64,000 nt of DNA, from NCBI RefSeq assembly GCF_008728835.1, contig NZ_CP042582.1:5749001-5813000 (forward strand), given 5' to 3'. The translations under genes were made by a program, and so were the position numbers. Under the pieces are notes generated by a model. The model had not been told where the DNA came from. It ran no database searches and saw only the letters and a list, made by a program, of their open reading frames with translations. Every line of letters starts with the position of its first letter. The first letter of the stretch is position 1. This document shows positions 6,242 to 34,285 of the stretch, one piece after another. Source of the DNA: Hypericibacter adhaerens. GTDB lineage: Bacteria; Pseudomonadota; Alphaproteobacteria; Dongiales; Dongiaceae.

Positions 6242-6243
6242 CG

Positions 6244-8423: not shown

Positions 8424-8450
8424 GGTTTTCTCCTGTTTGGCGGCACGTAA

Positions 8451-11160: not shown

Positions 11161-11164
<4 letters not shown>
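10277..11164 (-). CDS. carbon-nitrogen hydrolase (nitrilase superfamily)
   Basis: This 295-residue protein has the complete Glu-Lys-Cys catalytic triad of the nitrilase superfamily: Glu in LLLPELACLG (about residue 46), Lys in RQDKLHPT and Cys in GLAICYDVQFPE. The downstream Glu-containing segment and ARAVENQIYV are also typical. Members hydrolyse nitriles, amides or N-carbamoyl groups, and this one looks more like an amidase or carbamoylase than a true nitrilase. The ATG at 11164 overlaps the CoA ligase stop by ATGA. It is the last gene of the operon starting at 16808 or 15987. In context it could open a half-amide or carbamoyl intermediate made by the imidase-like enzyme. Confidence 0.88.
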
Positions 11165-12651
<1,487 letters not shown>

Positions 12652-13158: not shown

Positions 13159-13190
13159 GGTTGGTCCTTGGTTATTGGTCTGAGAGCCGG

Positions 13191-16874: not shown

Positions 16875-16892
16875 ATACTGACTGATGAGTAT
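16875..16892. promoter_or_regulatory. candidate TetR operator between racemase-like and flavoprotein genes
   Basis: ATACTGACTGATGAGTAT forms an imperfect palindrome (ATACT...AGTAT) in the otherwise GC-rich divergent spacer 16809-16973, followed by a run of seven T. Its left half matches the ATACTGAC half-sites at 8451-8510 and 24721-24734. It is 66 bases from the racemase-like start and 81 bases from the flavoprotein start. Confidence 0.55.
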
Positions 16893-18602: not shown

Positions 18603-19223
18603 CTACTTCTTCTTGTTCTTCTTGAGATAGCCGTTGGCGAGGAGCTCGGCGCAATAGTCGGCGATCTGCTCGGCAGAGAAAGCACCCTGCTCCTTGTACC
18701 AGACATAGAGCCAGTTGCACATGCCGAGCAGGCCGCTGACGGCGATGTGGGCCGGCATGCCGCAGAATACGCCGGCCGCGATGCCCGCTTCGTAGACCTC
18801 CTCGATCATCGCGTCGTACTGGCGCTTCTTCTTCGCGTTCTCCTTGCGCTGCTGATCGGTCAGCTCGCTTTCCTCGCGGAAATAGATCGCGGTCCAGTCG
18901 CGCCGCTCCATGACGTTCAGGGCGTGACGGCGGATGATCTGCGCCATCGCTTCTGCGGGCGGCAGGTTGCGGCTGCGGATCTCGGAGACGCCGGCGAAAT
19001 AGCTGTCGTAGATCCGCTGGAAAATCTGCCAGAGGATCTCGTTCTTGCTCGTGAAGTAGTAGTAGACGACCGACTTGGTGTAATCGAGGCTGGAGCCGAT
19101 ATCGTCGATGGTGACCGCGCGGTAGCCCCGCTCCGCGAAAAGCCTTGCCGCCGCCGCCAGGATCTCATCCTGGACATAGGCCTGCTTCCTGGCCTTGAGT
19201 TCGGCACGGGGCGAGGGTTTCAC
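18603..19223 (-). CDS. TetR/AcrR-family transcriptional regulator
   Basis: This 206-residue regulator has an N-terminal helix-turn-helix domain (AARLFAERGYRAVTIDDI, then SVVYYYFTSKNEILW, residues 20-65) and a C-terminal helical ligand-binding domain of the type often responding to acyl-CoA or small hydrophobic ligands. It starts with GTG at 19223, with AAGGAG seven bases upstream. The C-terminus is Lys-rich (KKNKKK). It is the only regulator in the 1.3-28 kb catabolic region, making it the best candidate to bind the repeated ATACYGAYNGGT sites. Its own upstream region lacks a good copy of that motif but has a different palindrome. Confidence 0.93.
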   Translation of the reverse strand: MKPSPRAELKARKQAYVQDEILAAAARLFAERGYRAVTIDDIGSSLDYTKSVVYYYFTSKNEILWQIFQRIYDSYFAGVSEIRSRNLPPAEAMAQIIRRHALNVMERRDWTAIYFREESELTDQQRKENAKKKRQYDAMIEEVYEAGIAAGVFCGMPAHIAVSGLLGMCNWLYVWYKEQGAFSAEQIADYCAELLANGYLKKNKKK

Positions 19224-19316: not shown

Positions 19317-20477
19317 TCACGTGTTGTAGGACCCGGCCGTCCAGCGCCGCAGCGCGCGCCAACCGGGGTCCAGCTTGGCGAAGCGGTCGAGCCCCAGGCC
19401 GTCGATCGGGACCTGGCTGCGCCCGTCGAGCGCGAGGTCGCAAATCGCCTGGCCGATGCTGGGTGCAAGGCCGAAGCCATGGCCGGAGGCGGTCGCGATG
19501 ATCATGCCGTCCGGCGCGGCGAGCCGCTCGATGATGCAGGTCTGGTCCGGTGTCACCTCGAGCACCCCGGACCAGCTGCGCAGGACCGGCGTGTTTGCGA
19601 GGCTGGGGAAGAGCTCGGCCAGACGCCGGGCAATGTTGCGGATGACCGGGGTTCCGGGCTTTGCCGGCTCGCCGGTGAGATCGACATCGACCCATTCATG
19701 CGGTCCGCCGTTGAAATGAATGTTGCCGCGGCGGGTCTGCCGAAGAGAAAGCCCGTGGCCGACCATGGCGACGTCGAACAGTCGCGGCAACGGCACCGTC
19801 ACCATGGCCTCCAGACGCACCGGAGCCAGCGGCACCGTCACGCCGACCATGGCCGCGATCAGCCCGACCTGCGGTCCGGCGCAATTGATGACGACGGGTG
19901 TCGAAATCGAACCGTTCGGTGTCTGCACCGCCCTCACCTTGCCGCCGGCGACCGTGATGCCGAGGGCCGGCGTCTGTTCGCGGATCGCACCGCCGGAATC
20001 GCGGAATGCCCAGGCGAAGGCCTGGCTCGCGCGCTGCGGATTTGCGTGACCGCCCCGGGTCGTGTGCAAACCGCCCAGGGTCTGTTCGGACAAGCAGGGC
20101 GCGATCGCCCGCGCCCCGGCACCGTCCAGCAACTGCACGGGTATGCCCGCCGCCTGCCATTGCGGGCAGATGTCCCGCAATTCGGCGAGGCGATCCGGCT
20201 CCAGGGCGACCCAGAGGCGCCCGCCGGGCAGCCATTCGGTGGGATAGCCGAGCCGTTCGTCCAAGGTCGACCAGAGCGTCTCCGCCGCCGCGGCGAGCGG
20301 CGCCTCCAGCGGCTGCTCGCCGCGCAAGCTGAGGAAGCCGGTGGCGCGTCCCGATGCCTCCCAGGCGACGCGACCCTTGTCCAGCACGATCACCTTGGCG
20401 CCCCGCTGTGCCAGCCAATAGCCGGCGGAGAGGCCCATGATGCCGGCGCCGATGACGACGGCGTCAGCCTTCTCCAC
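19317..20477 (-). CDS. FAD-dependent oxidoreductase, D-amino-acid oxidase (DadA/SoxB-like) family
   Basis: This 386-residue protein has the GxGxxG motif VVIGAGIMGLSAGYWLAQRG near its N-terminus, WEASGRATGF in the FAD-contact region, and the DAO C-terminal signature ATASGHGFGLAPSIGQAICD. I start it at GTG 20477, because GGAG lies seven bases upstream and the domain begins immediately. An in-frame ATG at 20507 would add ten basic residues. It overlaps the end of the FAD/BFD-domain gene by 14 bases. This pairing resembles the two-subunit opine/nopaline oxidases and HcnBC-type dehydrogenases, in which a DAO-like subunit pairs with a FAD/[2Fe-2S] subunit to oxidise a secondary amine or amino acid. 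Confidence 0.87.
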   Translation of the reverse strand: MEKADAVVIGAGIMGLSAGYWLAQRGAKVIVLDKGRVAWEASGRATGFLSLRGEQPLEAPLAAAAETLWSTLDERLGYPTEWLPGGRLWVALEPDRLAELRDICPQWQAAGIPVQLLDGAGARAIAPCLSEQTLGGLHTTRGGHANPQRASQAFAWAFRDSGGAIREQTPALGITVAGGKVRAVQTPNGSISTPVVINCAGPQVGLIAAMVGVTVPLAPVRLEAMVTVPLPRLFDVAMVGHGLSLRQTRRGNIHFNGGPHEWVDVDLTGEPAKPGTPVIRNIARRLAELFPSLANTPVLRSWSGVLEVTPDQTCIIERLAAPDGMIIATASGHGFGLAPSIGQAICDLALDGRSQVPIDGLGLDRFAKLDPGWRALRRWTAGSYNT

Positions 20478-22011
20478 GGCCGCTCTCCATCGCCTTCGCG
20501 CTGGCATAGCCCGGCGCCCCCTCATCCACCGGATGCAGCCAGATCGGCCAGGTTCGCCGCATCTCGTCGGTCTCCTCGCCGGCCCAAAGCACGCTGAGCG
20601 GCAACGCCCGCACGGGCGCACGGTAGGATCCTGGAACCAGCGCGGCCGGCGGCGTGCCCGCCGCCTCCGCCAGCAGCAGCAGCACCTGGTCGCGGCAGCG
20701 CTTGCCCTGGCAGTGGCCCATACCCGCGCGGGTCATGCGCTTCAGTATGTCCTGGCTGTTGCGGCTCGCGGGCGGCAATGCGCCGACGCCACCGCAGCTT
20801 TTCAGGTTGCCGGCGTTGAGATATTTCGGCGGGCTGACCTCGAGCAGCTCGCGCCGGGTCACGTCCTCGCATTGGCACACCACGACATCCATGCCACCGG
20901 CCTTGACCAGGGAGCGGAGCCAGTGACCGGCCGCCGCGAGGACAGAGTCGCCGCCGGCGACAGCGAGCGCCTCACCCTCCGCAGCCACGTTCCGGCCCTC
21001 GGCCGCTGCGACGGCGCGGGCCGCGCGGCGTCCCTGCTCGGCGGCGATTCCCGGGTCGAGATGCATCGGTTCCGCGACGCCGGCGCCATCGCCGGCCACG
21101 TAGACATTGGCGATCGAACTGCGGAACGAGGCGTCAAGCACCGGAGCCCAGCCGCCGCGGGCCGCGTCGAACGCGATGCGGCAGCCCGTGAGAGACGCGA
21201 GCTCGACATTCGGCACCGCGCCGAACGCCATGCAGACCGTGTCGCAAGCGATCTCCTGCGCCGAGTCCCGCACCGGGTTCGTCGCGGCATCGACGGCCAC
21301 CAGGCGCACCGCGCACACCTCCTGCTCGCCGAGTGCCCGCTCGATGGTGTGCCCGGTGTGGAACGAGACACCCGCCTGCGCCAACTCGGCGGCCAAGGCG
21401 GCATCGCCGCGGATCGCCGGCGCCGCTTCCACGAGCGCGGCCACCGTCACGCCCTTCTCCAGGGCAAGTTTCGCGGTGCGCAAGGCGATGTTGCCGGAGC
21501 CGAGGATCACCATGCGGCTCCCCGACAGGGCCTGGTAACGGTCGAGCAGCGCCGCGGCTCCGTTGGCACCGAGCACGCCGGGCAACTGCCAGCCGGGAAA
21601 GGAGAGGACGAGATCGCGCGACCCCGGCGCCAGGATCAGGTGATCATATTCGATCAGCCAGGAGCGCTCGCCGTCGGCGAGGCCAAGCTGCGGCGCGGCC
21701 AGGTGCGTGCTGTTCGCCCCCGGCCGATAGCTGCCCCAGATGCAGGTCCCGGTCAGGATTTCGACGCCAGCCTCGAGGCATTCCAGCAACGGTTCGTTGG
21801 CGCCGAGCACACGCTCGCCGATGGTGGCGGCATCGTCCAGCACCGCGGCGAGCCGCGCGCCATAGAAGTAGGGCGCATCGAGACTCATCGCCTGGAGACC
21901 CTGCGGATGCTCATCGATCAGCGTGACCTTCAGTCCAAGCTGCGCCGCCTCCAGCGCGGCGGCACAGCCGGCAACGCCGGCGCCCACCACAATCAGCTGT
22001 TCCTTGGCCAT
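20464..22011 (-). CDS. FAD/NAD(P)-binding oxidoreductase with BFD-like [2Fe-2S] domain (HcnB/OoxA/SoxA-like)
   Basis: This 515-residue protein has an N-terminal FAD motif VVGAGVAGCAAALEAAQLG, a second nucleotide site MVILGSGNIALRTAKLA near residue 170, and a C-terminal bacterioferritin-associated-ferredoxin-like domain with Cys in VVCQCEDVTRREL, KSCGG and GMGHCQGKRCRDQ (about 405-465). This is the arrangement of the large subunit of opine oxidase, HcnB and sarcosine oxidase alpha C-terminal regions. The start is ATG 22011; a GTG at 22017 is possible. Its tail overlaps the DAO-like gene, so the two probably form one enzyme. Electrons could pass to the adjacent ETF. Confidence 0.87.
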   Translation of the reverse strand: MAKEQLIVVGAGVAGCAAALEAAQLGLKVTLIDEHPQGLQAMSLDAPYFYGARLAAVLDDAATIGERVLGANEPLLECLEAGVEILTGTCIWGSYRPGANSTHLAAPQLGLADGERSWLIEYDHLILAPGSRDLVLSFPGWQLPGVLGANGAAALLDRYQALSGSRMVILGSGNIALRTAKLALEKGVTVAALVEAAPAIRGDAALAAELAQAGVSFHTGHTIERALGEQEVCAVRLVAVDAATNPVRDSAQEIACDTVCMAFGAVPNVELASLTGCRIAFDAARGGWAPVLDASFRSSIANVYVAGDGAGVAEPMHLDPGIAAEQGRRAARAVAAAEGRNVAAEGEALAVAGGDSVLAAAGHWLRSLVKAGGMDVVVCQCEDVTRRELLEVSPPKYLNAGNLKSCGGVGALPPASRNSQDILKRMTRAGMGHCQGKRCRDQVLLLLAEAAGTPPAALVPGSYRAPVRALPLSVLWAGEETDEMRRTWPIWLHPVDEGAPGYASAKAMESGRGEG

Positions 22012-22017
22012 CTCCAC

Positions 22018-22992
22018 CTAACCCTGCGTCGCACGCAGCTCCCGGACCCGCGCAGTAAAGGCTGGAACGATCTCCTTGGCATCGCCGACCACGCCGAACC
22101 GCGCGACGCGGAAGATGCTCGCCTCTTGATCCTTGTTGATGGCCACGATCGCCCTGGCGCCCGTCAAGCCCGCCAGATGATGCACGGCGCCGGAAATGCC
22201 GATCGCGAGATAGAGATCGGGGCTGACCTTCTGGCCGCTGAAACCGATCTGCTGCGAATGCGGTACCCAGCCGAGTTCCACCACGGCGCGCGTGGCGCCA
22301 ACGGCGGCGCCGAGCGCGGTTGCCGTCGCCTCGACCAGATGCCAGTTTTCCTTGGCACCAAGCCCGAGTCCTCCGGAGACGATGATCTTGGCCGATTTCA
22401 GACGCGGTCCGGCCGCGGCCGATTCCGGCTTTTCCTCGATCAGGGCGACGCGCGACACGAGATCCGGGACCGCGACCGGCATGATCGGGACGCAGGCCGC
22501 CGTCGTAGGCACGGGAGCAAAGGCACCCGGGGCGAGGGTCGCAAAGCGCAGCGGTCCATCGACCTCGTATTCCGCCTGGACCGCGCCGCCGCATACCGGC
22601 CGGGTCGCGATCAGGGTACCGCCCTTGAAGGCGAGCCCGGTGCAGCCGGTCGCCAGCGGAACGCCAAGGCGTCCGGCAAGCAGCGGCACCCATTCGGCCG
22701 TCTCCGCCGTTTGCGGGAACAACACCAGATCCGGCGCCGCGCGCCCGATGATCGCCGCCGCCGCCGCCGCATGTCGCTCCGCGATATAGGGGGTGAGTTG
22801 CGGGTGATCCGAGACAAACAGTCCCGAAAGGGCGGCTCTGGCGAACAAGCCCGCCGCCGCGGCAAGATCGTGTCCGATCAGCGCGCCCTGGACGGGTGTC
22901 TGTCCAACCGCCTGTGCCGCCGCGACGGCTTCCAGCGTTGCGCCGGCGAGTTCCCCATCGGAGAGCGAGCCGAAAACCAGGATCCCCGCCAT
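22018..22992 (-). CDS. etfA: electron transfer flavoprotein subunit alpha
   Basis: This 324-residue protein has the C-terminal FAD domain typical of EtfA: IVSGGLGLGAKENW, then the signature VPHSQQIGFSGQKVSPDLY, AIGISGAVHHLAG and INKDQEASIFRVARFGVVGD. Its ATG shares one base with the EtfB stop (TGATG). ETF accepts electrons from acyl-CoA dehydrogenases and related flavoproteins. Placement beside a dedicated dehydrogenase pair suggests a pathway-specific ETF. No ETF:quinone oxidoreductase is in the window. Confidence 0.95.
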   Translation of the reverse strand: MAGILVFGSLSDGELAGATLEAVAAAQAVGQTPVQGALIGHDLAAAAGLFARAALSGLFVSDHPQLTPYIAERHAAAAAAIIGRAAPDLVLFPQTAETAEWVPLLAGRLGVPLATGCTGLAFKGGTLIATRPVCGGAVQAEYEVDGPLRFATLAPGAFAPVPTTAACVPIMPVAVPDLVSRVALIEEKPESAAAGPRLKSAKIIVSGGLGLGAKENWHLVEATATALGAAVGATRAVVELGWVPHSQQIGFSGQKVSPDLYLAIGISGAVHHLAGLTGARAIVAINKDQEASIFRVARFGVVGDAKEIVPAFTARVRELRATQG

Positions 22993-23783
22993 CAGATCAT
23001 TCCTTCCTGGCGCAGGCGGTCGGCCAGGGCGACCCCGGCAGCCGCGGCCGACGGGGCGGCAATCAGCTCGGCGCGGCTCTCCGGCATCGGCGAGACGGAA
23101 AGGCGCCGCAGGATGAGCGCCGGCATGGGTGGCTCGATACCGAGATCGGCCGCCGACCAGGTCGGAATTTCGGCCTTCTTCGCCAGCATCACGCCCTTCA
23201 AGGGTGCAGGCCGTGGCTTGTTGATCTCGTTGGAGACCCCGAGCACCGCCGGCAGCATGACTTTGAGACGCTGCGTCGTCCCGTCGCCGATCCGCTCGAC
23301 CGTCGCACCGCCGGCCGCGTCGATTGTGAATCCCTTTACGGGCGTGATGACCGGAAGATCGAGCAGCGCCGCGAGGCGTTGCGGCACCTGACCGGCATCG
23401 GTGTCGGACGCCTGGCGGCCGGCGAGGATCAGATCCACCGGCGCGAGCTTGCGGATGGCGGCGGCAAGCAGCGCCGCCGTCGCCGCGCTGTCCGCGGCAA
23501 GGCCAGTGGGCCCGGCGATCAGAACCGCGCGGTCGCCACCCATCGCAAAGGCGCGGCGTAGCGCGGCCTTGACGGACTCGTCGCCGATGCTGAGCAGGGT
23601 GATGCTGCCGCCGTGCTTCTCCTTGAGCATGACGGCAGCTTCGACGGCATTGGCATCGTAGCCGTTCATGACCGGGCTCATGCCGGCGAGCGGATCCAGC
23701 GATCGCCCGTCGTCGGATATCCGCAGCTGCACCGCGGGCGTGTTCGGGTCGAGGACCTGCTTCAGGGCAACGACAATATGCAT
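22992..23783 (-). CDS. etfB: electron transfer flavoprotein subunit beta
   Basis: This 263-residue protein begins MHIVVALKQVLDPNTP and contains the EtfB regions MNGYDANAVEAAVMLKE, LAGRQASDTDAGQVPQRLA and the signature-like LPAVLGVSNEINKPRP. It pairs with EtfA encoded immediately downstream. The gene starts 22 bases after the stop of the citrate-synthase-like gene in the same leftward operon. The C-terminal AMP-binding tail is shorter and more Ala-rich than in housekeeping EtfB. Confidence 0.95.
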   Translation of the reverse strand: MHIVVALKQVLDPNTPAVQLRISDDGRSLDPLAGMSPVMNGYDANAVEAAVMLKEKHGGSITLLSIGDESVKAALRRAFAMGGDRAVLIAGPTGLAADSAATAALLAAAIRKLAPVDLILAGRQASDTDAGQVPQRLAALLDLPVITPVKGFTIDAAGGATVERIGDGTTQRLKVMLPAVLGVSNEINKPRPAPLKGVMLAKKAEIPTWSAADLGIEPPMPALILRRLSVSPMPESRAELIAAPSAAAAGVALADRLRQEGMI

Positions 23784-23805: not shown

Positions 23806-24627
23806 TCAGTTCCCGGTCCAGCCGGCGGCCTTGAGATCGGCGACGAGCTCGCGGCGCGGCCGCGCGTACTCCACCGTCTCGTCCGGCACGGTCCGGATGC
23901 GCACCTTGCTTTGCAGCTCCTCGGAGATATGGGCGATCACCCCGGGCATGCTGGACATCAGGGCGATGCCGGTCATCTCCGCAGGGGTGAAACCCATCTG
24001 CGCCAGGATCGCTGCCATCATGCCGACTTCGTTGATCACGATCTCCGGCTTGCCGGTCTTGGCCGTGAAGGCTCTGTGCAGCGCCTCATACCAGTCGCAC
24101 AATGGCCCCCAGCAGCCCTCCGCCTGGGCGATGCTCTTCAGCTTCTGCGCCCGCGGATCCGTGAAGCGGAAATTGGGATGGCCGAACCCCGGGACCCGCC
24201 GGCCGGCGGCGCGAAGCCGGTCGATCTCCGCCGCCGCCGCGGTGTCGTCGGCGCCACTCGCCTGCCCGGCGGCGGCAAAGCTCTCCGCAATGAACCGCCC
24301 GGCATCGTCCGGCGCCAGGGTGTATTCCCCGACCGAGAGAATGGCGGTGGCGAGGCCCGCCGTCATCGAAGGATTGGCCGAAACACAGTAGCGGGCGGCC
24401 ACGGTCCCGGGCTTCTTCAACGCATAGTCCAGGACCGAGCACAGGATCGCGTCCATCATCCGGGCCTCGCCCGGCTTCGGCAGCCTGCCACGGATCAGCA
24501 AATAGGCGGCGGCGGAGAAGGAAAGCCGTCCGATCAGGTCGCCGAGGCTATAGCCCCGGATGAAAACGTCCGCGGCCTCCACGTCGCTGACCGCCGTGCT
24601 CCAGGACCGCTTGCCTTGTCCGTCCAT
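23806..24627 (-). CDS. short citrate synthase-like / citryl-CoA lyase-like protein
   Basis: At 273 residues this is much shorter than citrate synthase (about 430) and close to stand-alone citryl-CoA lyases. Recognisable blocks are RGYSLGDLIGRLSF, the His block RRVPGFGHPNFRFTDPRAQKL (equivalent to citrate synthase GHxVYK) and the C-terminal PGVIAHISEELQ. The HGGA block that carries the first catalytic His in citrate synthases reads VGEYTLAPDD here, and the segment expected to contain the catalytic Asp reads VINEVGMMAAIL. The chemistry may therefore differ from citrate formation or cleavage. GAGGA precedes the ATG by four bases. It is the first gene of the leftward operon with etfBA. Confidence 0.8.
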   Translation of the reverse strand: MDGQGKRSWSTAVSDVEAADVFIRGYSLGDLIGRLSFSAAAYLLIRGRLPKPGEARMMDAILCSVLDYALKKPGTVAARYCVSANPSMTAGLATAILSVGEYTLAPDDAGRFIAESFAAAGQASGADDTAAAAEIDRLRAAGRRVPGFGHPNFRFTDPRAQKLKSIAQAEGCWGPLCDWYEALHRAFTAKTGKPEIVINEVGMMAAILAQMGFTPAEMTGIALMSSMPGVIAHISEELQSKVRIRTVPDETVEYARPRRELVADLKAAGWTGN

Positions 24628-24697
24628 GTTTTCCTCGATATCCGGCGCCAGCCGTCCGGGCGGCGCTTACTCTTGCCTGGCATTTTCCCTAGCATAG

Positions 24698-24734
24698 TTA
24701 GACCAGTCGGTATACAAAAAAGACCTATCAGTAT
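24698..24734. promoter_or_regulatory. two candidate TetR operator copies between the citrate-synthase-like and NMO-like genes
   Basis: TTAGACCAGTCGGTATAC (24698-24715) and AGACCTATCAGTAT (24721-24734) lie in tandem in the divergent spacer 24628-24776. On the opposite strand they read ATACCGACTGGTCT and ATACTGATAGGTCT, which align with the sites at 8451-8510 and 16875-16892. The first contains the imperfect palindrome ACCGACTGGT. The stretch is strikingly AT-rich compared with its surroundings and probably covers both transcription starts. Confidence 0.6.
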
Positions 24735-24776
24735 AAGAGACCCTGCCACGATTGAGCCAGGGAGGAGAGAGACGCG

Positions 24777-25895
24777 ATGATGCGGACCCCCGTCACCGAG
24801 ATGTTCGGCATCGAGTTGCCGGTCTTCGCCTTTTCGCATTGCCGGGACGTGGTTGTGGAAGCCTCGCGGGCGGGCGGAATGGGGGTGCTGGGGGCCGCCT
24901 GGATGACGCCGGACGAGCTGGAAGTCGCCCTCAAATGGATCGACGAGAAGATCGGCGGCAGGCCCTATGGCGTCGACCTGGTGTTCCCGGGCACCTTCGC
25001 CGCCGACGCCGATGAGGACGATCCCCAGCGGCTGGTCCCGCAAGGGCATCGGGACTTCATCGGCAAGGTGATCGACCGCGCGCAGATCCCTCCGCTCCCC
25101 GCCGAAGACGCCGCGCAATTCAACCGCGAAAACGCCGCCAAGATGCGCATGACGCCGCTGGAGAGCGAGCGAGCGCTGGAGATCGCGCTGCGGCATCCGG
25201 TGAAGTTCGTGGTCGGCGCGATGGGCGTGCCGCCGAAGCATGTCATCGATCGCGTCCATGCCCGCGGCATCAAGGTCGGCGGCCTGATCGGCGCGGTGAA
25301 GCACGCGGTGAGGCAGCGCGATGCGGGCGTCGATGTGCTGATCGCCCAAGGCAGCGAGGCAGGCGGCCATGTCGGTCGGATTTCCTCCATGGTGCTCTGG
25401 CCCCAGGTGGTCGACGCGGTGGCGCCGCTGCCGGTGCTGGCGGCCGGCGGCATCGGCCGAGGCCGACAGTTCGCCGCCGCCATGGCACTGGGTGTCGCCG
25501 GCGTCTGGTGCGGATCGATCTGGCTTGGCACCCGCGAAAGCGAGCTCAACCCGGAAATGAAGCAGCGCATGTTCGGTGCGGCGTCGGAGGATGCCGTGGT
25601 CAGCGAGGCCCTGACCGGCAAACCCTGCCGCATCCTGAAGAGCGCCTATACCGAGGCCTGGGACCAGCCCGGCGCGCCGAAACCGCTGACCTTCCCGCTT
25701 CAGTCGATCCTGGTGGGCGAGCCGCTGCGCCGCGCCGAACGGGCGCATCGTCTCGACTACTGGACCTATGCCGTGGGCCAGATCGTCGGCGACATGAAGT
25801 CCGAGACCTCGGTCCGGCAGATCTTCGCCGATCTTCTGACAGAGTATGTCGCCGCCGTCGATCACGTGACAGAGCTGACCGCCGAAGCAGAGTAG
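24777..25895 (+). CDS. nitronate monooxygenase-like FMN protein (2-nitropropane dioxygenase family)
   Basis: This 372-residue TIM-barrel flavoprotein has the family blocks TEMFGIELPVFAFSHCRDV, SRAGGMGVLGAAW, VLIAQGSEAGGHVG (FMN phosphate and catalytic region) and PVLAAGGIGRGRQFAAAMALG. The His of EAGGHVG is the residue used by bona fide nitronate monooxygenases, but the family is heterogeneous and includes enoyl reductases. A strong GGAGGAGA precedes the ATG pair at 24777/24780. It is divergent from the etf operon and upstream of the SucCD-like genes, with which it may be co-transcribed. Confidence 0.85.
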   Translation: MMRTPVTEMFGIELPVFAFSHCRDVVVEASRAGGMGVLGAAWMTPDELEVALKWIDEKIGGRPYGVDLVFPGTFAADADEDDPQRLVPQGHRDFIGKVIDRAQIPPLPAEDAAQFNRENAAKMRMTPLESERALEIALRHPVKFVVGAMGVPPKHVIDRVHARGIKVGGLIGAVKHAVRQRDAGVDVLIAQGSEAGGHVGRISSMVLWPQVVDAVAPLPVLAAGGIGRGRQFAAAMALGVAGVWCGSIWLGTRESELNPEMKQRMFGAASEDAVVSEALTGKPCRILKSAYTEAWDQPGAPKPLTFPLQSILVGEPLRRAERAHRLDYWTYAVGQIVGDMKSETSVRQIFADLLTEYVAAVDHVTELTAEAE

Positions 25896-25906
25896 GCCGC
25901 GCGAGG

Positions 25907-25920
25907 ACAGTCGGCATACC
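25907..25920. promoter_or_regulatory. weak further copy of the shared motif before the SucC-like gene
   Basis: acagtcggcatacc in the 39-base spacer differs from the 24698 site core (agtcggtatac) at one base over 11. It may be an internal operator or chance. Listed because of its position directly ahead of the SucC-like start. Confidence 0.25.
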
Positions 25921-25934
25921 ATTCCCACAAGCCC

Positions 25935-27080
25935 ATGCTGCTGCTGGAGCATCAAGGAAAGGGACTCCTTCGCCGGCATGGAATTGCCACGCCTCACGGC
26001 ATGCCGGTGGCGAACGCAGCGGCGCTCGACCAGGCGCTCCGCACCCTGCCGCCGCACCTCGTGCTGAAGGCACAGATCTTCGGCGGCGGCCGCGGCAAGG
26101 GTGGCGGCATCGCCTTCGCGGCGACCGCGGACGAGGCGAGCGCGGCCTATGCCGCTCTACGGAATCGGGCAATCAACGGCCTGCCGGTGGAATCCGTGCT
26201 GATCGAGGAACGGATCGACCACCTTCGGGAGCGCTATGCCGGGCTCGTGATCGACTCCGGCGAGATCCGGCTCCTGTTCGGGCGCGCGGGCGGCGTCGAG
26301 ATCGAGGAGATCACGGCGCGAGATCCTGGAAATCTCGCCGGTTTCGCGGTGGATCCGATCGACGGCCCGGCTTCCGGCTCGTTCGCCGACTGCTTCGACC
26401 GGCTCGGCTTCGCGTTGGAATATCGCGGGGAATACGAGGCGATCGGCCGTGCGCTCTTCGCGCTGGCACGAAGCTGCGACGCCACCACGGTGGAGATCAA
26501 TCCCCTGGTCGAGCTGCCGCAGGGTCGATTGCTCGCGCTCGACGCCCGCGTCTTCATTGACGACGACGCGCTCGGCCGTCAGGCGGAACTGGCCGCGCTG
26601 CGGCCGCACCAGGCCGCAATGTCGTCAGCTCGAAGCGACGTGGCCGGCCTGCGCTTCAAGGATAATCCGGCCGGAGGCACGATCGGGCTGATCGGCCTCG
26701 GCGGCGGCCTCAACGTGACGCTGATGGACTGGATCGCCGAGAGCGGCGAGCAGGTTGCGCGCCTGGTGGATATCGATCCGGCGATCGGCGCCGGCCGCGC
26801 CGCCGAGGGGTTTGCGGCCGCGCTCGCCGCTTTCGACGAGGACAGTGCCATCCACGCGGTGCTGCTCAACATCATTACCTGCGGCTATCGCCTGGATGAG
26901 ATCACCGCAGCCCTGCTGCCGGCGCTCGCGGCGCGGAACGGCAAGGCCAAGCCCGTCATCCTGCATCTTCGCGGCAATGCGGGGGCGCGGACGCCGGCGA
27001 TGCTGGCGCACGCGGGGTGCCTCAACAGCGCCTCGATCGCAGCCGCGGTCGCCGACGTCATCGCCGCCGCGCGGGCATAG
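25935..27080 (+). CDS. SucC-like CoA ligase beta subunit (ATP-grasp)
   Basis: This 381-residue protein resembles the beta subunit of succinyl-CoA synthetase and its malate-CoA ligase (MtkA) and citryl-CoA synthetase relatives. The ATP-grasp part shows HQGKGLLRRHGI at the N-terminus, LVLKAQIFGGGRGKGGGI, the Mg-binding TTVEINPLVELP near residue 195, and the C-terminal ligase domain with IGLIGLGGGLNVTLMDWI, where succinyl-CoA synthetase has GAGLAMATMD. Overall sequence is divergent (NIITCGYRLDEI for NIFGGI), so the acid is probably not succinate. Start ATG 25935 lacks a clear ribosome binding site. It pairs with the SucD-like gene two bases downstream. Confidence 0.85.
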   Translation: MLLLEHQGKGLLRRHGIATPHGMPVANAAALDQALRTLPPHLVLKAQIFGGGRGKGGGIAFAATADEASAAYAALRNRAINGLPVESVLIEERIDHLRERYAGLVIDSGEIRLLFGRAGGVEIEEITARDPGNLAGFAVDPIDGPASGSFADCFDRLGFALEYRGEYEAIGRALFALARSCDATTVEINPLVELPQGRLLALDARVFIDDDALGRQAELAALRPHQAAMSSARSDVAGLRFKDNPAGGTIGLIGLGGGLNVTLMDWIAESGEQVARLVDIDPAIGAGRAAEGFAAALAAFDEDSAIHAVLLNIITCGYRLDEITAALLPALAARNGKAKPVILHLRGNAGARTPAMLAHAGCLNSASIAAAVADVIAAARA

Positions 27081-27082
27081 AC

Positions 27083-27967
27083 ATGGCGATCCTGGCCGGC
27101 CGGCACTCAAAAGTCCTCGTCTGCGGCATCGCCAATCCGCTGGCGCGATTCCAATGCGAGGAGATGCTGCGCCACGGCACGCAGGTCAGCGGTGTCGTCG
27201 GCTTGGAGAGCGACGTCGCCGGCTGGGTCTCTCCGCCTCTCCCCATCTTCATCGATCCCGCCGTGGCGGCAGAAGCCTCGGGCGCCGATCTCGCGATGGT
27301 CTTCACGCCGCCTCTGGAAGTGAAGGCCGTGGTGAGCGCATTGATCGCGGCGCGCACGCCCGTCGTGGTCTGCCTTACCGAGCATGTGCCGGTTCACGAC
27401 GCCGTCGTTCTCCGCCACTTGGCGAAACGCGCGGGGACCCTCCTGATCGGCCCGAATTCCAGCGGCCTCCTGTCGCCCGGCCGCGCCAAAGCGGGATTTT
27501 TCGTCGAGGATATCTGCCAACCGGGCCCCGTCGGCCTGGTGGCCAAAAGCGGCTCGCTGGCCTATGCGGTGATGTCCGAGCTGAAGAGCGCCGGGCTCGG
27601 CATCAGCACCGTGGTCTCGATCGGCGGCGATGCCGTGAAGGGCGCCGATTTCCGCGACATCCTGGCTCTCTTCGCCGCCGACCCGGAGACGCGGGCGATC
27701 GTGATGCTGGGCGAGATCGGCGGAAACGACGAGGAAAACGCGGCGGGCTGGCTGCATGAACACCCGATCGCAAAGCCGGTTGTCGGCTTCATCGCCGGCC
27801 GCTCGGTGCCGCCCGGTCAAGCCATGGGCCATGCCGGCGCGATTGCCCAACGCGGCCGCGGTGACTATGCCGCCAAATGCAGCGCTTTGGCGACGGCTGG
27901 GGTCGTTCTGGCACGCAACATCGGTGCTGTTCCTCGGCTGGTGGCCATGAATTTGGCTGTCGGCTGA
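27083..27967 (+). CDS. SucD-like CoA ligase alpha subunit
   Basis: This 294-residue protein has the CoA-binding Rossmann start VLVCGIANPLARFQCEEML, FTPPLEVKAVVSALI, GPNSSGLLSPGRAKAGFF (equivalent to GPNCPGIITP), VSIGGDAVKGADFRDILALF, and the phosphohistidine loop MGHAGAI with the active-site His retained. The frame is open for 22 further codons upstream, but the ATG at 27083, two bases after the SucC-like stop, gives the normal N-terminus. With the beta subunit it should form an ATP- or GTP-dependent acid:CoA ligase. Some such pairs (malate-CoA ligase, citryl-CoA synthetase) work with a lyase, which makes the nearby citrate-synthase-like gene notable. Confidence 0.87.
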   Translation: MAILAGRHSKVLVCGIANPLARFQCEEMLRHGTQVSGVVGLESDVAGWVSPPLPIFIDPAVAAEASGADLAMVFTPPLEVKAVVSALIAARTPVVVCLTEHVPVHDAVVLRHLAKRAGTLLIGPNSSGLLSPGRAKAGFFVEDICQPGPVGLVAKSGSLAYAVMSELKSAGLGISTVVSIGGDAVKGADFRDILALFAADPETRAIVMLGEIGGNDEENAAGWLHEHPIAKPVVGFIAGRSVPPGQAMGHAGAIAQRGRGDYAAKCSALATAGVVLARNIGAVPRLVAMNLAVG

Positions 27968-28047: not shown

Positions 28048-28560
28048 TCAGCCCCGATCCACCGCCTGATGGAGCTCGCGATAGGCGCGGACGAGCTGGT
28101 CCAGGCTGAAGGCGCGATTTCGGCCGCTGGGATTGGGCAGCACCCAGGTCGCGGCACCGCCGAAGGCTGCCGCTTGTGAACCCCAGTCGATCTGCCGCTG
28201 GCCGGAGAGCGCGGAATAGGCGGCTTTGCCGAGAAAGGCGACGAACCGCGGCGCGTAGCGCCGGATCTTCCGTTCGAATTGCGCGGCGGCGGCGGCGAAG
28301 TCTCGCGTGGATAGCTCGTCCGCCCGCGCGGTCGCTCGCGCCACCACCGCCGTCAGGCCGCAGCGGTAGGTGAGGATCGTGCGATCGTTCTCGGGCGAGA
28401 TTTCCTGCGGTGTGAAACCGGCAAGGTGGATCACCCGCCAGAAGCGATTGCTTCTCCGGACAAAATGATGCCCGGCGACGGCCGCCGAGAGCGCGGGATT
28501 GATCCCGCAGAAGATCACGGCAAGGTCCTTCGCGAGGATGTCTTCGAGCGAGCCGGCCAT
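28048..28560 (-). CDS. mug: G/U mismatch-specific uracil-DNA glycosylase
   Basis: This 170-residue protein aligns along its full length with Mug. It has VIFCGINPALSAAVAG (catalytic Asn in GINP), RRSNRFWRVIHLAGF, TYRCGLTAVVARATARADEL and the DNA-contact motif WVLPNPSGRN. It removes uracil or ethenocytosine from mismatches in double-stranded DNA. The frame is open upstream to 28659, but the ATG at 28560 gives the family's normal start. It sits convergently after the SucD-like gene, with an 80-base gap, and marks the end of the catabolic region. Confidence 0.9.
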   Translation of the reverse strand: MAGSLEDILAKDLAVIFCGINPALSAAVAGHHFVRRSNRFWRVIHLAGFTPQEISPENDRTILTYRCGLTAVVARATARADELSTRDFAAAAAQFERKIRRYAPRFVAFLGKAAYSALSGQRQIDWGSQAAAFGGAATWVLPNPSGRNRAFSLDQLVRAYRELHQAVDRG

Positions 28561-28678
28561 CTTTTGTCCCACAACCTCGTCGGAGCCAAACCGACCGCGT
28601 GCCGATCGCCTCACCCGCGGGCACGGACCGCATCGTGCCGGCGATCGCCAAGAATGCAACCGGCCGCGATCGGCCCCG

Positions 28679-31600
28679 TCAGCGCCGGCGGCGGAGACGG
28701 TTGATGACCCGTGCCAGCGCCGGCAGCCGGCGGACCAGCCGGCGCAAGGGGGCCGTCAGGCGATAGGAAAGGCTGTTCTCGAGCGCGTGGATGCGCGTCT
28801 CGAGGGCGAGCAGCTCCACCGGCCGGGGCGACGGGGCGGCGGTAATCCGGATCTTCTCCAGCGGAGGGCGGTCACGGGTCTCCCAGTTCTCGAAAGCCTC
28901 GTTGTAGAAATCGATCAATTCGGCGCGCACATACTCTTCCCGCGCGATCAGCCCGACGCTGCGATGGGCCCGGCGCAGGATCTCCTCGGCCTGGTCGGGC
29001 GGCAACGACGCGGCCATATGAACGGCTTCGGCCAAGGCCGGCGCATCGTGGCCTCCGGCCAGGATGCCCCCGTAGCGGTGGCGCAGAATCTCTCCGATCC
29101 CGCCGACGTCGGTCGTCACCACCATCAGGCCCGCGGCCATGGCCTGCAGCACGGTCTGCGGCATCGACTCGTCGGTCGATGCCATCAGCAGGATCTGGCA
29201 GCGCCCCTGGTAGAAGTGCTCCGGCTTGTCGATGAAGCCGTGGATCGTCACCCGATCCTGGAGCCCCAGCGAAAGGATCGCCTTGCGGCAGGCATCGGGA
29301 TAGTCCGGCACGATCCGGTCGTAGCCGATGATGTCCAACGTCACATCCAGTCCCTGCCGTGCCAGGAGCCCGACGGCGCGGATCGCCTCGAGCTGATTCT
29401 TGCGAGGTTGGAGCGTGCCCGACATCAGCAGATGCAGACCGGAGCCCGGCTCGCGGCGGCGCGACAGGTTGGCTGGGAACGCATCGAAATAGGCCGGTTC
29501 GACCGGGCAGACGATCCGCCGGACGGGCTTGTGCATCGCTTGCGCCCAGTCGCGCGCATAGCGGAGCGAGGAACAGTGGATCGCGTCGGCGATATTCCAG
29601 GCCGCGCCCTCCTCCATGGGCATGAACTGATGCAGGCTCACCGCCACCGGCACCTTGAGCGCCCCGCCGGCGAAGATCGCGGTCGGATTCCAGACCGCGG
29701 CATGAAGCAGGCCCACATCATGAGCCTCGATCTGGCGGGCCATGGTCTCGCCATCCTGCCGGTCCTTGTCGTCGGGCGTTCGATGCTCATCGCCGCCCAT
29801 CGGGCCGTCGGTATAGCCAATCCTCCAGCGGCTGGAGATCAGGGGCGCGTCGCCGCTGACACCGGCCCAGCGTTCCGCGAAGATCCTCCCATCCTCCTCG
29901 TTCGAGGCGCCGATCACGCCGACCAGCCTGAACCCCAGCGACCTCGCCATCTGCGCATGGCGCAGCAAATGCAGCGTCGCGCCGCCGAGAGAGGTTTCAT
30001 GGAAGACATAAGCGATGGCGCGCCGGCCCAGCCGGCGATGCAGGTCCGCCGCGTCGAAGCAGGCGGCAAAATCGACGAGCTGTCGCTCGGTCGCGTAGCG
30101 TTTCTGCGCGAAGGCCCGCGCCCGCTCGAGCATGGCGGCACGCCCGTCCCGCCCGAGCGCCTGTGCCCGCCCGAGCGCCGACCGCCATCCTTCGATCGTG
30201 TTGGGCGTCTTGAGACAGATATCGTCCGGCAGGCCCTGATAAGGAGGCGCGTCGGTGAAGATGCAGATGGCGCCGCTGGCGACGGCTTCGAGAAGTTTCA
30301 CCGGGCTCTTGCTGCGCGACGCCAGAAGCTGATCGTCCAGCGGGACCAGCATGATGTCGAACGAGGCCTGCAACAACCGCGATCGATAAAGATCATAGGA
30401 ATGGGTAAAGGGCTGCCAGGAGACCGGGCAGGGCAGGGATCCGAACGCGGCGGGATCCAGGCCCCAGAAATGAAACTCGATGGCGTCGGGTGCCGCCTCG
30501 GCGAAAGCGGCCAGCGCCGGCCATAGCGCCTGCAGGATCTCGCGGCGGACCGGCCCGCTCAGCACCGCCACGCTGAGCCGGTTTCCCCGGCTGTAGGGGC
30601 GCTCGCTCAGGAAGCGCAAGGGAATGTTGGTATCGAGCCTCAGCACGTGGGGATTGAGGGCGGCCATGTCGGCGTTGATCTGGTCGCTGTAGCCGATACA
30701 GGCGTGAGCTTCGCGAATCTGCGTCTCGATCGCGGCCCGGGCCGGCGTTCCCGGCGCCAGGAACCGATGCTCCGGACCCACCTCGTCGAACCGGAGCATG
30801 TTGTCGTCCATCAGATAGACGCAGGATCGATCCGCCTTCAGCGCGTTCAGCACCCTGGTGGTGCCGTCGGTGACCGTTCGGTACATGATCAGCGTGTCGG
30901 CACCGCTCCAGGCAACCGAACCGATCTCACGCTCGGGGACGAAGAAATTCGAATAGGGGCTGTCGTCGAGACGCGTGAAGTTCCGGATCGTGACATCGAT
31001 GCTGGTGGAGAAATCCGGCTTCACGACCGCCAGGGCCTTGCGCTTGCGACGCGAGACCATCGCCGGCAGCAGCGCCTCGGTGCGGGCATAGTCGTGCTGC
31101 GTGACGAGGAACGGAATGATCGACCGGCGCCGGATCTGGTCGACCTCCCGCTCCGAGAAGACCTGGCGCAGCATTGCCGTTCCGGCGACCTCATAGCGCC
31201 GGATGGCGGCCGGCTTGAGCGCTTCTTCGCGCGGGATCTCCAGATACTTGCGGTAGATCGTGTGGTCGTGCGGGATCGAGGTGCCGAGCGAGTTCGGCTG
31301 GAAAGCGCGCACCTTCGCGACGACCGCGTCGAGGAAGATGAAATCCGCAACGGCGCCGAACCGGAGCCAGAGATCGTAGTCGCTGTAGCGCCGGCAGACG
31401 ACATGCGGATCGTACATGCCGGCGATCTCGAACAACTCGATCGGGTGCAGGACGCTGTTGTTGGCGATGTAGTTGCCGCCGACGAGCCGGCCATAGTTGA
31501 AGGAGGCGCCGAGCCTGCGCGTGGTCTCGGGCTGCCCCGGCGGCGCGGCCTCGAGATCGGCAATGCCGTAGACGACGGACGGCTTCTCGCGCCCCTCGAT

Positions 31601-31984
31601 CGCCTCGACCCTGATCTTCAGGCTTTCCGGCGTCCAGAGATCGTCGTCGAACTGATACCCGATCAGCCGCCCCCGGGCGGCCATCGCCGCCTGATTCACG
31701 CGCAACGCGGGCAAGCCGCTGTTCCTGCGGTACCGATGCACCGTCACGCGTGGATCGGCGCGTCGATACTCGTTCAGGATGTCGGCGGTGCCGTCGCGCG
31801 ACCCGTCGTCGACGACGATGAGCTCGAAATCGCCATAGCTCTGCGACAGCACGCTGTCGATGGCGCTCCCGAGCATGCGCTCGGCACGAGCGTAGGTCGG
31901 AAGAACGATCGAGACGGTGGGGGCGTTGGGAGCATCGGCCCGGCGGTCGACGACGAGATCCTGGAAAAAATCCTCAAATCGCAT
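28679..31984 (-). CDS. large bifunctional glycosyltransferase (GT2 plus GT4-type domains)
   Basis: This 1101-residue protein combines two glycosyltransferase modules. Residues 20-250 are a GT2 domain (TVSIVLPTYARAERMLGSAI, LIVVDDGSRDGTADIL, and GYQFDDDLWTPE with the metal-binding Asp cluster). Residues from about 700 form a GT-B/GT4 domain (MSGTLQPRKNQLEAIRAVG, VTIHGFIDKPEHFYQG, STDESMPQTVLQAMAAGLMVVTTDVGGIGEIL). The middle (about 330-620) resembles another degenerate GT-B fold. There is no signal peptide, so it acts at the cytosolic face, probably building a surface polysaccharide. It is divergent from the acyltransferase gene. Donor and acceptor are unknown. Confidence 0.88.
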   Translation of the reverse strand: MRFEDFFQDLVVDRRADAPNAPTVSIVLPTYARAERMLGSAIDSVLSQSYGDFELIVVDDGSRDGTADILNEYRRADPRVTVHRYRRNSGLPALRVNQAAMAARGRLIGYQFDDDLWTPESLKIRVEAIEGREKPSVVYGIADLEAAPPGQPETTRRLGASFNYGRLVGGNYIANNSVLHPIELFEIAGMYDPHVVCRRYSDYDLWLRFGAVADFIFLDAVVAKVRAFQPNSLGTSIPHDHTIYRKYLEIPREEALKPAAIRRYEVAGTAMLRQVFSEREVDQIRRRSIIPFLVTQHDYARTEALLPAMVSRRKRKALAVVKPDFSTSIDVTIRNFTRLDDSPYSNFFVPEREIGSVAWSGADTLIMYRTVTDGTTRVLNALKADRSCVYLMDDNMLRFDEVGPEHRFLAPGTPARAAIETQIREAHACIGYSDQINADMAALNPHVLRLDTNIPLRFLSERPYSRGNRLSVAVLSGPVRREILQALWPALAAFAEAAPDAIEFHFWGLDPAAFGSLPCPVSWQPFTHSYDLYRSRLLQASFDIMLVPLDDQLLASRSKSPVKLLEAVASGAICIFTDAPPYQGLPDDICLKTPNTIEGWRSALGRAQALGRDGRAAMLERARAFAQKRYATERQLVDFAACFDAADLHRRLGRRAIAYVFHETSLGGATLHLLRHAQMARSLGFRLVGVIGASNEEDGRIFAERWAGVSGDAPLISSRWRIGYTDGPMGGDEHRTPDDKDRQDGETMARQIEAHDVGLLHAAVWNPTAIFAGGALKVPVAVSLHQFMPMEEGAAWNIADAIHCSSLRYARDWAQAMHKPVRRIVCPVEPAYFDAFPANLSRRREPGSGLHLLMSGTLQPRKNQLEAIRAVGLLARQGLDVTLDIIGYDRIVPDYPDACRKAILSLGLQDRVTIHGFIDKPEHFYQGRCQILLMASTDESMPQTVLQAMAAGLMVVTTDVGGIGEILRHRYGGILAGGHDAPALAEAVHMAASLPPDQAEEILRRAHRSVGLIAREEYVRAELIDFYNEAFENWETRDRPPLEKIRITAAPSPRPVELLALETRIHALENSLSYRLTAPLRRLVRRLPALARVINRLRRRR

Positions 31985-32195
31985 TCTTGGTGCCCAACCG
32001 GGACGTTCGATATCGGTCGACAGTAGTCGACCCGACGCAAGGGGCGCAACGGCCGAGGGCCTCGCGGGCGCGGTTTCGATACCGACCCGTCGACAACCCG
32101 TCGTTGCGTTCGTTGACAGGAATCGTCCCGCGCTGGCACTATGGGCTATTCGACGAACTCCTCCCGGTCCGCTCTCTCCGAGCGCTCATCGCTCA

Positions 32196-33290
32196 TTGAA
32201 TCAATCCTCCGGACTTTTTCGCTTCCGCGGAATCCAGTGCTTGCGAGCGATCGCGGCGACCCTGGTGCTCGCTCAGCATGCCGTTTATTTCGCGGGGCTG
32301 ACCGAAGGCGAAGACATGATGGCGTTTCGCTATCTCTATGTCGGAGCCATCGGGGTCTTCTTGTTCTTCATGATCTCGGGCTTCGTCATGGCCCTGCAGA
32401 CCGGCCAGCCGGCCCGGCGTTTCGCGCTGCACCGTCTCCTGCGGATCTATCCCGGCTACCTGCTGGCGTCGTTCGTCAATCTGCTGCTTCTGGCGCTCTT
32501 CTTGCCGGGCGCCCTGCAGGATCCTCGCTTCGAGATTTCTCTCCTGCTGCTGCCCAGCGGCAGCTTGAGCCCGATGCTCCAGGTTCCTTATTGGTCGCTG
32601 ATCTACGAGATCGTCTTCTATTTTCTGCTGTTTCTTGCAATAGCGCTGAAGCTCCGACCCGCGATCCAGACGGCCTTCATGCTGGTCTGGGCCCTCTTGA
32701 TTCTGATGGCGCCGGCCTTGAGCGTTCGCAGCGACTTCTGGGCCTCGGCCGGTGCCGGGACCATCCTGTTCTCCCCCTTCAATCTCTATTTCATCGGCGG
32801 GTTCCTTCTGTGCGGCGCCCTGCAGCACGGACGGCGTTTTGCCCTCGCCTTGTGGCTGGCGATGATCCTTGTGGAATCCCTGTGGCGGGGCGCCGTGATG
32901 AACGAGTTCCACATCAGGCTCATTCTCTGTGGCGGCGCCGGTCTCGCCCTTGCCAGCCTGCTGCCCTGGATTCCATGGCCGCGCCTTCTGGCCCGGATCG
33001 GCGACTGGTCCTACGGTCTCTATCTGGTGCATCTGCCGATCATCGTCGCCCTCTATCAGCTTCTGAAGGACGATGGCCCGGGGTTCTGGCCGGCGTTCGC
33101 CATCTTCTTTGGCGCCGGCCTCGCCGGCGGGAGCGCCTTCGGCGGTCTTGAATATTGGCTTTATCGCCGCTCCCTGCGTCCGCTGGCCGATCGGCTTTCC
33201 GGCAAGTCCGTTTCTTCCGGAGCCCGCGATCGGGGGACCGGCCCGGTCTCGACGGTCGTCCCGGCGGTGACAGCCTCTCCCCGTTCCTGA
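32196..33290 (+). CDS. acyltransferase 3 family membrane protein (OafA/NodX-like)
   Basis: This integral membrane acyltransferase has the N-terminal family motif FRFRGIQCLRAIAATLVLAQHAVYF, with the catalytic His in the first membrane helix, FFMISGFVMAL, and about ten hydrophobic segments ending with DWSYGLYLVHLPIIVALYQLL. Members O-acetylate surface glycans or lipids using acyl-CoA. The frame is open far upstream (to 31917), but the only plausible start giving a normal N-terminus is TTG 32196 (364 residues). It lacks a convincing ribosome binding site, so the exact start is uncertain. It fits with the flanking glycosyltransferases. Confidence 0.82.
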   Translation: MNQSSGLFRFRGIQCLRAIAATLVLAQHAVYFAGLTEGEDMMAFRYLYVGAIGVFLFFMISGFVMALQTGQPARRFALHRLLRIYPGYLLASFVNLLLLALFLPGALQDPRFEISLLLLPSGSLSPMLQVPYWSLIYEIVFYFLLFLAIALKLRPAIQTAFMLVWALLILMAPALSVRSDFWASAGAGTILFSPFNLYFIGGFLLCGALQHGRRFALALWLAMILVESLWRGAVMNEFHIRLILCGGAGLALASLLPWIPWPRLLARIGDWSYGLYLVHLPIIVALYQLLKDDGPGFWPAFAIFFGAGLAGGSAFGGLEYWLYRRSLRPLADRLSGKSVSSGARDRGTGPVSTVVPAVTASPRS

Positions 33291-33368
33291 TCGTTGCGGC
33301 GCGCCCGCCCGGCTCCGGGAACGCGGCGCCCTTTGGACTTGATCACGGAGATGCCGACAGGACGGCGA

Positions 33369-34073: not shown

Positions 34074-34285
34074 CGCCTATACCGAACCCCCCGTTTCCGG
34101 TCCGGCAGGCGGGGCTTGCGTTCCGACATCGAGCCAGCAGCAGGTTCTCAATCGTTTGCCCATTCCGTCTCGGCCAAGCAAATCGAGATTATCGAAACTT
34201 CGGCGAGTCGCGAAGAAGGCCGGACGGGTGCCTGAAATCCGGCCCGACTGCATCGAGGCGCGAACGGGCCCGCGGCCCCGATTGG

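Follow-up and report, generated by a model that had tools for sequence, protein, structure and literature searches.

A SucCD-like gene pair beside a citryl-CoA-lyase-like gene

The window analysed here is a 64,000-nucleotide stretch of Hypericibacter adhaerens DNA, part of a 5.87-Mb genome on one contig, in which genes resembling those for the two subunits of succinyl-CoA synthetase, SucC and SucD, lie close to a gene for a citryl-CoA-lyase-like protein. The lyase-like gene (23806–24627, minus strand) encodes 273 residues with a citrate synthase fold, as indicated by its NF004869 score and its fold match. It is divergent from an NMO-family flavoprotein gene (24777–25895, plus strand; PF03060) across a 149-base promoter spacer (24628–24776) that holds two exact operator copies. 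On the same strand, the gene for the SucC-like subunit (25935–27080) starts 39 bases past the NMO gene, and that for the SucD-like subunit (27083–27967), which carries the GHAGAI phosphohistidine loop, starts 2 bases past the SucC stop; both were assigned from family scores and motifs. The order NMO-SucC-SucD recurs in a second genome of the same order, G008, with a thioesterase-like gene separating the NMO gene from the lyase gene. The initial annotation had the SucC and SucD genes flank the lyase gene and had overlooked the NMO gene; since the latter faces the lyase gene and SucC only begins 39 bases after it, the ligase genes do not flank the lyase gene. The pair and the lyase-like gene themselves are intact as annotated, with scores and open frames beyond chance, and the reported GHAGAI loop is indeed kept (SucD residues 249–254, window 27827–27844).

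A divergent SucCD-like ligase

The ATP-grasp motifs and the phosphohistidine loop place the pair in the SucCD-fold superfamily of ADP-forming acyl-CoA ligases. Among named NCBIfam models SucC and SucD score best, and this favours the view that the pair is a duplicated ordinary succinyl-CoA synthetase that sits at this locus by chance. However, both scores lie below the curated cut-offs (SucC-like 213 bits, cut-off 370; SucD-like 275 bits, cut-off 336), and the one other SucC in the host genome is only 32% identical to the SucC-like protein. In a 45-row SucC tree, a branch supported at 100/100 separates the proteins of the window, G008 and Rhizobium sp. Root1212 from all other rows. The Root1212 protein has a long branch (3.93), yet it shares the signature letters of the group. 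Three MtkA-type rows form another group, outside of which the SucC-like protein falls, and its score with the MtkA model is 137 bits (cut-off 604). For CcsA and CcsB, the comparison was by bit scores only, and the tree evidence concerns the SucC subunit: the SucC-like protein has 151 bits with SucC 3ufx and 59 bits with CcsA 6hxq, and the SucD-like protein 212 bits with SucD 2yv1 and 112 bits with CcsB. In the phylogenetic comparison proposed in the initial annotation, the SucC-like protein does not group with housekeeping SucC or MtkA; CcsAB was covered by scores.

The SucC-like protein keeps GGRGK and EINPL and is altered in two loops which presumably line the acid-binding site: NGAG is replaced by LGGG (LIGLGGG, 26688–26708) and NIFGGIxRCD by NIITCGYRLDE (26868–26900). 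In a 44-row comparison, the window and G008 proteins deviate at NGAG and NIF[GA]G from all 42 SucC/MtkA rows, and the Root1212 protein has LGGG and NAISCG at these loops. The MtkA motif NIFAGINRCDW is absent from the SucC-like protein. On the SucD side GHAGAI and GEIGG are retained, and GFTG, GPNCPG and SRSGTL are altered. Common to all three pairs are LIGLGGG, N[IA]I[TS]CGYxLDE, GPNS[ST]G, KSGSLAYA and GGDxVKG, together with the retained G[GA]RGK, EINPL and GHAGAI. Given the separate branch, the low identity to the genome's own SucC and the changes in loops that are constant in 42 rows, a duplicated ordinary SucCD is a most improbable explanation; the pair is distinct from housekeeping SucCD, and the ligase is very likely not a succinyl-CoA synthetase. 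Identities as housekeeping SucCD, MtkAB and CcsAB were all rejected on scores and residues, with the tree in addition for SucC and MtkA.

Changed positions in the lyase-like protein

The lyase-like protein exceeds the cut-off of the citryl-CoA lyase subfamily model NF004869 (PRK06224.1-6) by a wide margin (327 bits, cut-off 212). Its best match in the PDB is the Hydrogenobacter citryl-CoA lyase 6hxp (142 bits), which is also the best fold match (Foldseek E 2.7e-14) of a structure model of middling quality (pLDDT 72.8). Both matches speak for a true citrate-cleaving CcsAB/Ccl system. Against such a system, the SucC-like and SucD-like proteins are nearer to SucC and SucD than to CcsA and CcsB, and two positions of 6hxp are changed in the lyase-like protein. 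In the alignment, NVDG of 6hxp is opposite NEVG; the Asp position of 6hxp corresponds to V201, with E200 just before it (24025–24030), and the Arg position to S226 (23950–23952). H150 and R159 are kept (GFGH at 24178–24189). A citrate-cleaving CcsAB/Ccl system is therefore very unlikely here.

To place these changes, 55 lyase-like proteins from the loci were compared, leaving out near-copies (among them L094, like L095, and L085, the second G008 copy) and matches under 180 residues (among them L102, from a gene read in two frames). The window protein belongs to a clade of 21 of the 55, with support 100/99. Position 201 is Val in all 21, and among the 34 others it is Asp in 17 and another residue in 17. 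Position 200 is Glu or Asp throughout the clade and in none of the 34 others, and position 226 is Ser or Thr in 21/21 and Arg in 32/34 of the others. H150 is kept in every clade member and in 32 of the 34 others; R159 is present in all 55. Because 17 of the 34 proteins outside the clade also lack the Asp, its loss alone is not special to the window clade, and the label "citryl-CoA lyase" would be too broad for the family. Many alphaproteobacterial citryl-CoA-lyase-like proteins (loci L006–L083) have NATG, NANG or similar in place of NVDG. A protein of genome G072, outside the window clade, retains NIDG and scores 230 bits with NF004869.

The Asp position is one that we take to correspond to D1026 of human ACLY. 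Human ACLY requires its counterpart of this Asp, the role of which is debated (PMC10115795). Together with Val at this position in 21/21 clade members, this could suggest that the loss of the Asp has turned the protein into a CoA-thioester hydrolase or a condensing enzyme. This is unlikely, however, as a neighbouring acid is conserved in 21/21, H150 and R159 are kept, and the surrounding gene island is catabolic in make-up. We read the changed positions as pointing to a changed substrate that may lack the group held by the Arg, and the protein is probably not a citryl-CoA lyase. Because positions have changed in both the ligase and the lyase, a substrate other than citrate is likely, in line with what the initial annotation had proposed.

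A shared operator motif

The motif ATACYGAYNRGT was derived by comparing the spacers of the window and G008. The two exact copies in the 149-base spacer are at 24702–24713 and 24723–24734, both read on the minus strand. Further copies lie on the minus strand between ABC transporter and GMC oxidoreductase genes (8449–8510; 8449–8460 with one mismatch and 8499–8510 exact), and with one mismatch per strand between racemase-like and CrtO-like genes (16875–16892, copies starting at 16875 and 16881). With at most one mismatch, the window holds 11 matches vs. 1.9 expected, an excess that is not independent of the choice of pattern; six are these copies, all between island genes, and the other five start at 12990, within the MaoC open reading frame, and at 32079, 36370, 40037 and 42657, outside the island. 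Among 19 related loci not used for deriving the motif, there are 64 copies vs. 17.8 expected from Markov-resampled sequence, with three loci lacking any copy. By contrast, 19 control loci show no enrichment (13 copies vs. 12.6 expected). The operator-bearing spacer of the initial annotation is thereby substantiated.

In the window, operator copies precede the NMO-SucCD and lyase genes, the CrtO-like and racemase-like genes, and the GMC and ABC genes. In G008 they are located directly before the lyase gene, on the side where the thioesterase-like, NMO and SucCD genes lie. Given these copies and their enrichment, the SucCD, lyase, NMO, CrtO-like and GMC genes probably form one regulon, most likely regulated via the operator by the TetR protein of the island. 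That there is one regulon and one island can be stated with high confidence.

Occurrence of the ligase pair

Two short peptide patterns from a lyase alignment, run against 84,980 species with one genome for each, produced 20 loci, 19 at ≥55% identity and one Variovorax outlier at 38%. The SucCD-like pair was found in three genomes, those of the window, G008 and Rhizobium sp. Root1212, each of which also has a lyase of the window clade and the same kind of island. Within 17 genomes of the order, only the window genome and G008 have the pair, and the same two are the ones with this lyase over the model cut-off. In the phylum (299 genomes), the SucC-like protein has its next best match at 38% identity. 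Among 385 sampled genomes of the class, the SucC-like or lyase profile (E ≤ 1e-70) is present only in the window genome, with neither in the 384 others. The Root1212 SucC-like protein is 39% identical (220 bits), compared with 98 bits for the other SucC of that genome, and its pair is surrounded by CrtO-like, acyl-CoA dehydrogenase, deacetylase-family, AMP-ligase, amidase, MaoC, GMC and TetR genes. Of the 19 genomes behind the other scan loci, the Variovorax outlier included, all but Root1212 have SucC matches at 29–35% only; the three Variovorax matches were left unchecked for the signature letters. In a plasmid collection queried with two SucC-like proteins, the matches listed (25 of 76 and 12 of 90 records) were at most 35% identical, either across half of the protein or as ordinary SucC. 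The co-occurrence of pair and lyase expected from the initial annotation thus extends to two further genomes.

One other genome, G129 (locus L067), has SucCD within ~4 kb of a lyase gene and was considered as an independent case. It was dropped as support because its SucC is an ordinary alphaproteobacterial one and its lyase belongs to another clade; with the MtkA model this SucC scores 595 bits, short of the cut-off of 604, and in the tree it adjoins the window genome's own SucC.

A conserved catabolic island

The pair and the lyase gene belong to a catabolic island of ~27 kb (1300–27967), which the initial annotation had not recognised. Next to the lyase gene, on the minus strand, are genes for EtfB (22992–23783), EtfA (22018–22992), a SoxA/HcnB-like FAD oxidoreductase with a weak BFD-like [2Fe-2S] match (20464–22017) and a DAO (SoxB/glycine-oxidase-like) FAD enzyme, a probable amine dehydrogenase, whose longest open reading frame is 19317–20621 and whose actual start probably lies near 20.5 kb. 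Then follow the TetR regulator (TetR_C_24; 18603–19223, minus strand), the presumed reader of the operator, and a CrtO/CrtI-like FAD oxidoreductase (16974–18599, plus strand, with an ATG at 16974; the query in searches was 16995–18599). A block on the minus strand encodes an Asp/Glu/hydantoin racemase family protein (hydantoin/allantoin-racemase-like; 16029–16808), an SDR dehydrogenase (15199–15987), an acyl-CoA dehydrogenase (14006–15202), an imidase-like protein of the polysaccharide deacetylase family (13191–14009), a MaoC-type hydratase (12676–13497, the domain lying within the C-terminal half of the longest open reading frame) and an AMP-forming acyl-CoA ligase (11161–12651). The island is completed by two GMC (choline-dehydrogenase-like) oxidoreductases (8541–10268, plus strand; 1300–3054, minus strand) and a branched-chain-type ABC transporter with two ATPases, two permeases and a substrate-binding protein (3790–8423, minus strand). 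A 255-residue open reading frame between the ABC ATPase and GMC genes (3051–3818, minus strand) has no Pfam match and is conserved in G008 at 49%. Next after SucD is a gene of the uracil-DNA-glycosylase superfamily (28048–28659, minus strand), followed by very large minus-strand open reading frames (28679–36460; 1101 and 724 residues) that by eye are glycosyltransferase-like.

Conservation was assessed in 23 loci, comprising the scan loci, three Rhizobium plasmid records and the window. Partners were counted within ~10–12 kb (more for the window and G008) at ≥35% identity; several loci are cut short, making these counts lower bounds. The most frequent partners are the deacetylase-family protein and SDR (19 loci each), AMP-ligase, RidA and TetR (16 each), racemase-like (15) and MaoC (14), followed by NMO (12), EtfA and EtfB (11), amidase and thioesterase-like (10 each), DAO and HcnB-like (9), acyl-CoA dehydrogenase and CrtO-like (8 each) and SucCD (2). 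A longer Root1212 stretch adds most of the island core and brings the AMP-ligase to 17 loci. In 20 control loci around other lyase subfamilies, no partner occurs in more than two (MaoC), and SucCD occurs in one, the housekeeping pair of G129. The island is present in Alpha-, Beta- and Gammaproteobacteria, among them Rhizobium, Pseudomonas and Paraburkholderia. The acyl-CoA dehydrogenase and CrtO-like genes are found in an identical set of eight loci, as are the DAO and HcnB-like genes in nine, in the manner of swappable oxidation modules on a common core. Two copies of the island (L155, L156) are on Rhizobium plasmids predicted to be conjugative, next to genes for GABA-transaminase, SSADH, ETF-QO and a second EtfAB, and to genes annotated as DMSP-lyase family and adenylate kinase. 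In locus L081 (G196), a lyase of another clade lies beside DAO-like (29%) and HcnB-like (27%) flavoproteins, and the link between amine dehydrogenases and lyases may therefore be wider.

The best PDB match of the deacetylase-family protein is 3qbu (HpPgdA; 197 bits), with PuuE-type proteins next. According to PMC9304392, 3qbu is the nearest homologue among known structures of HxnM, a cyclic imide hydrolase that has a ketoreductase-type enzyme before it and an amidase after it. Given this 3qbu-like protein and the amine-dehydrogenase-like, RidA, amidase and hydantoin-racemase-like genes, we infer that the island substrate may be a nitrogen heterocycle or an imide.

Proposed pathway and alternatives

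The island would be a TetR-controlled catabolic unit for a nitrogen-containing compound, probably a cyclic imide, lactam or amine. The SucCD-like pair would be an ADP-forming ligase that attaches CoA to an acid of the pathway other than succinate, malate or citrate, and the lyase-like protein would split, in a retro-Claisen reaction, a beta-hydroxyacyl-CoA other than citryl-CoA into acetyl-CoA (or a substituted acyl-CoA) and an oxo compound. The most likely course starts with the opening of an imide or amide ring by the deacetylase-family imidase, the SDR and, in relatives, the amidase, which would yield a substituted malate or fumarate. Activation could take place via the AMP-ligase followed by MaoC hydration, or via SucCD acting directly on the hydroxyacid, as malate-CoA ligase does. 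From the resulting substituted malyl-CoA, the lyase would release acetyl-CoA and a 2-oxo acid. Speculative candidates for the substrate include opine-like compounds, pantothenate, pyrrolizidine or tropane alkaloids and substituted maleimides.

Several observations weigh against a ligase that feeds the lyase in this way. The pair is absent from 17 of the 20 genomes with a lyase of the window clade, and so the lyase step can generally proceed without it; the island already has an AMP-forming ligase; and in Root1212 the pair and the lyase gene are on one 78-kb contig but 33 kb apart. In addition, neither an amidase nor RidA was matched in the first 30 kb of the window, and a lyase-like protein that has Val in place of the Asp might be unable to cleave at all. 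In the main rival explanation, SucCD belongs to a different step of the route: the AMP-ligase and MaoC would feed the lyase, and SucCD would work elsewhere, e.g. in reverse to harvest ATP from an acyl-CoA product, ADP-forming ligases being reversible, or in activating a side product. The distance in Root1212 fits this explanation, as do the frequencies, the AMP-ligase being present in 16 of 23 lyase loci compared with SucCD in two of 23 loci and three of 20 genomes. On the other hand, the NMO-SucCD side and the lyase gene use one bidirectional operator spacer in the window, operator copies in G008 are placed before the lyase gene on the SucCD side, and the pair is found only in genomes with the lyase clade. 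A division of the two enzymes over different steps is a substantial, if minority, possibility.

For the activation of a substrate by SucCD directly ahead of the lyase, the case is finely poised and falls slightly short of even. The activate-then-cleave idea of the initial annotation survives in part: co-occurrence, the shared island and the changed sites favour it, and the rarity of the pair, the AMP-ligase in at least 16 of 23 loci and the gap in Root1212 do not. It is reasonable in a wider sense: the lyase is usually partnered by the AMP-ligase, and SucCD adds a further point of entry in the three genomes found with the pair, whose islands are very full. The favoured explanation as a whole, i.e. 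the island, a non-standard ligase, a retro-Claisen lyase and the order of steps, is tentative. A more specific version is doubtful as it stands: an undescribed aerobic route for an N-heterocycle or imide, in which a SucCD-type ligase would yield a substituted, perhaps amino-bearing, malyl-CoA for a re-tooled lyase, with its acid shifted by one residue and its Arg lost, to split into acetyl-CoA and a 2-oxo acid, would add to CcsAB/Ccl and MtkAB/malyl-CoA lyase a third pair of the activate-then-cleave kind. Should the favoured explanation be right, the folds of citryl-CoA lyase and SucCD have been re-used together for a non-citrate substrate, and many proteins of the "citryl-CoA lyase" family may act otherwise (the Asp is missing in 38 of the 55 proteins analysed). 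It would also provide testable chemistry for a conserved island of Rhizobium (including predicted conjugative plasmids), Pseudomonas, Paraburkholderia and others. In literature searches, which left subscription papers mostly outside their coverage, neither this island nor a catabolic use of citryl-CoA lyase appeared among the matches listed.

Comparison with known systems

The pair resembles SucCD in fold, ATP-grasp motifs and the GHAGAI loop; it differs in scoring below the cut-offs, in its long separate branch and in the changed NGAG and NIFGGI loops, and a housekeeping copy is present elsewhere in the genome. The lyase-like protein is a member of NF004869 by score, and the window clade is narrower than the model. 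In ATP-citrate lyase, the ligase and lyase domains are fused, whereas the window genes are separate and on opposite strands. For the island, an analogy is offered by HxnW-HxnM-HxnN of fungal nicotinate catabolism, where a ketoreductase/polyol-dehydrogenase-type enzyme, a 3qbu-like cyclic imidase and an amidase act in a row; the accessible part of PMC9304392 gives no CoA ligase or lyase step for it. The island loci have an SDR, a 3qbu-like protein and often an amidase, the latter being absent from the first 30 kb of the window, and the likeness is one of analogy only.

Malate-CoA ligase MtkAB and malyl-CoA lyase are an established ligase-then-lyase pair, and the likeness in principle is that of a SucCD-type ligase feeding a retro-Claisen lyase. 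The window SucC-like protein, however, misses the MtkA cut-off, the MtkA clade and the NIFAGINRCDW motif, and the window lyase has the citrate synthase fold, unlike malyl-CoA lyase, which is of another fold. With citryl-CoA synthetase (CcsAB) and citryl-CoA lyase (Ccl) of Hydrogenobacter thermophilus (6hxq, 6hxp), the window shares an ADP-forming SucCD-fold ligase, a separate short lyase of citrate synthase fold and the lyase His of the GFGH/GYGH motif (H150, 21/21 in the clade). It differs in a ligase nearer to SucCD than to CcsAB and in V201 and S226 at the Asp and Arg positions of 6hxp; CcsAB/Ccl serves carbon fixation, whereas the window pair is in a catabolic island. From the scores, trees and residues compared, the pair and lyase would resemble CcsAB/Ccl or MtkAB/malyl-CoA lyase in principle while being a member of neither, and an activate-then-cleave module of this kind would plausibly be new in a catabolic setting.

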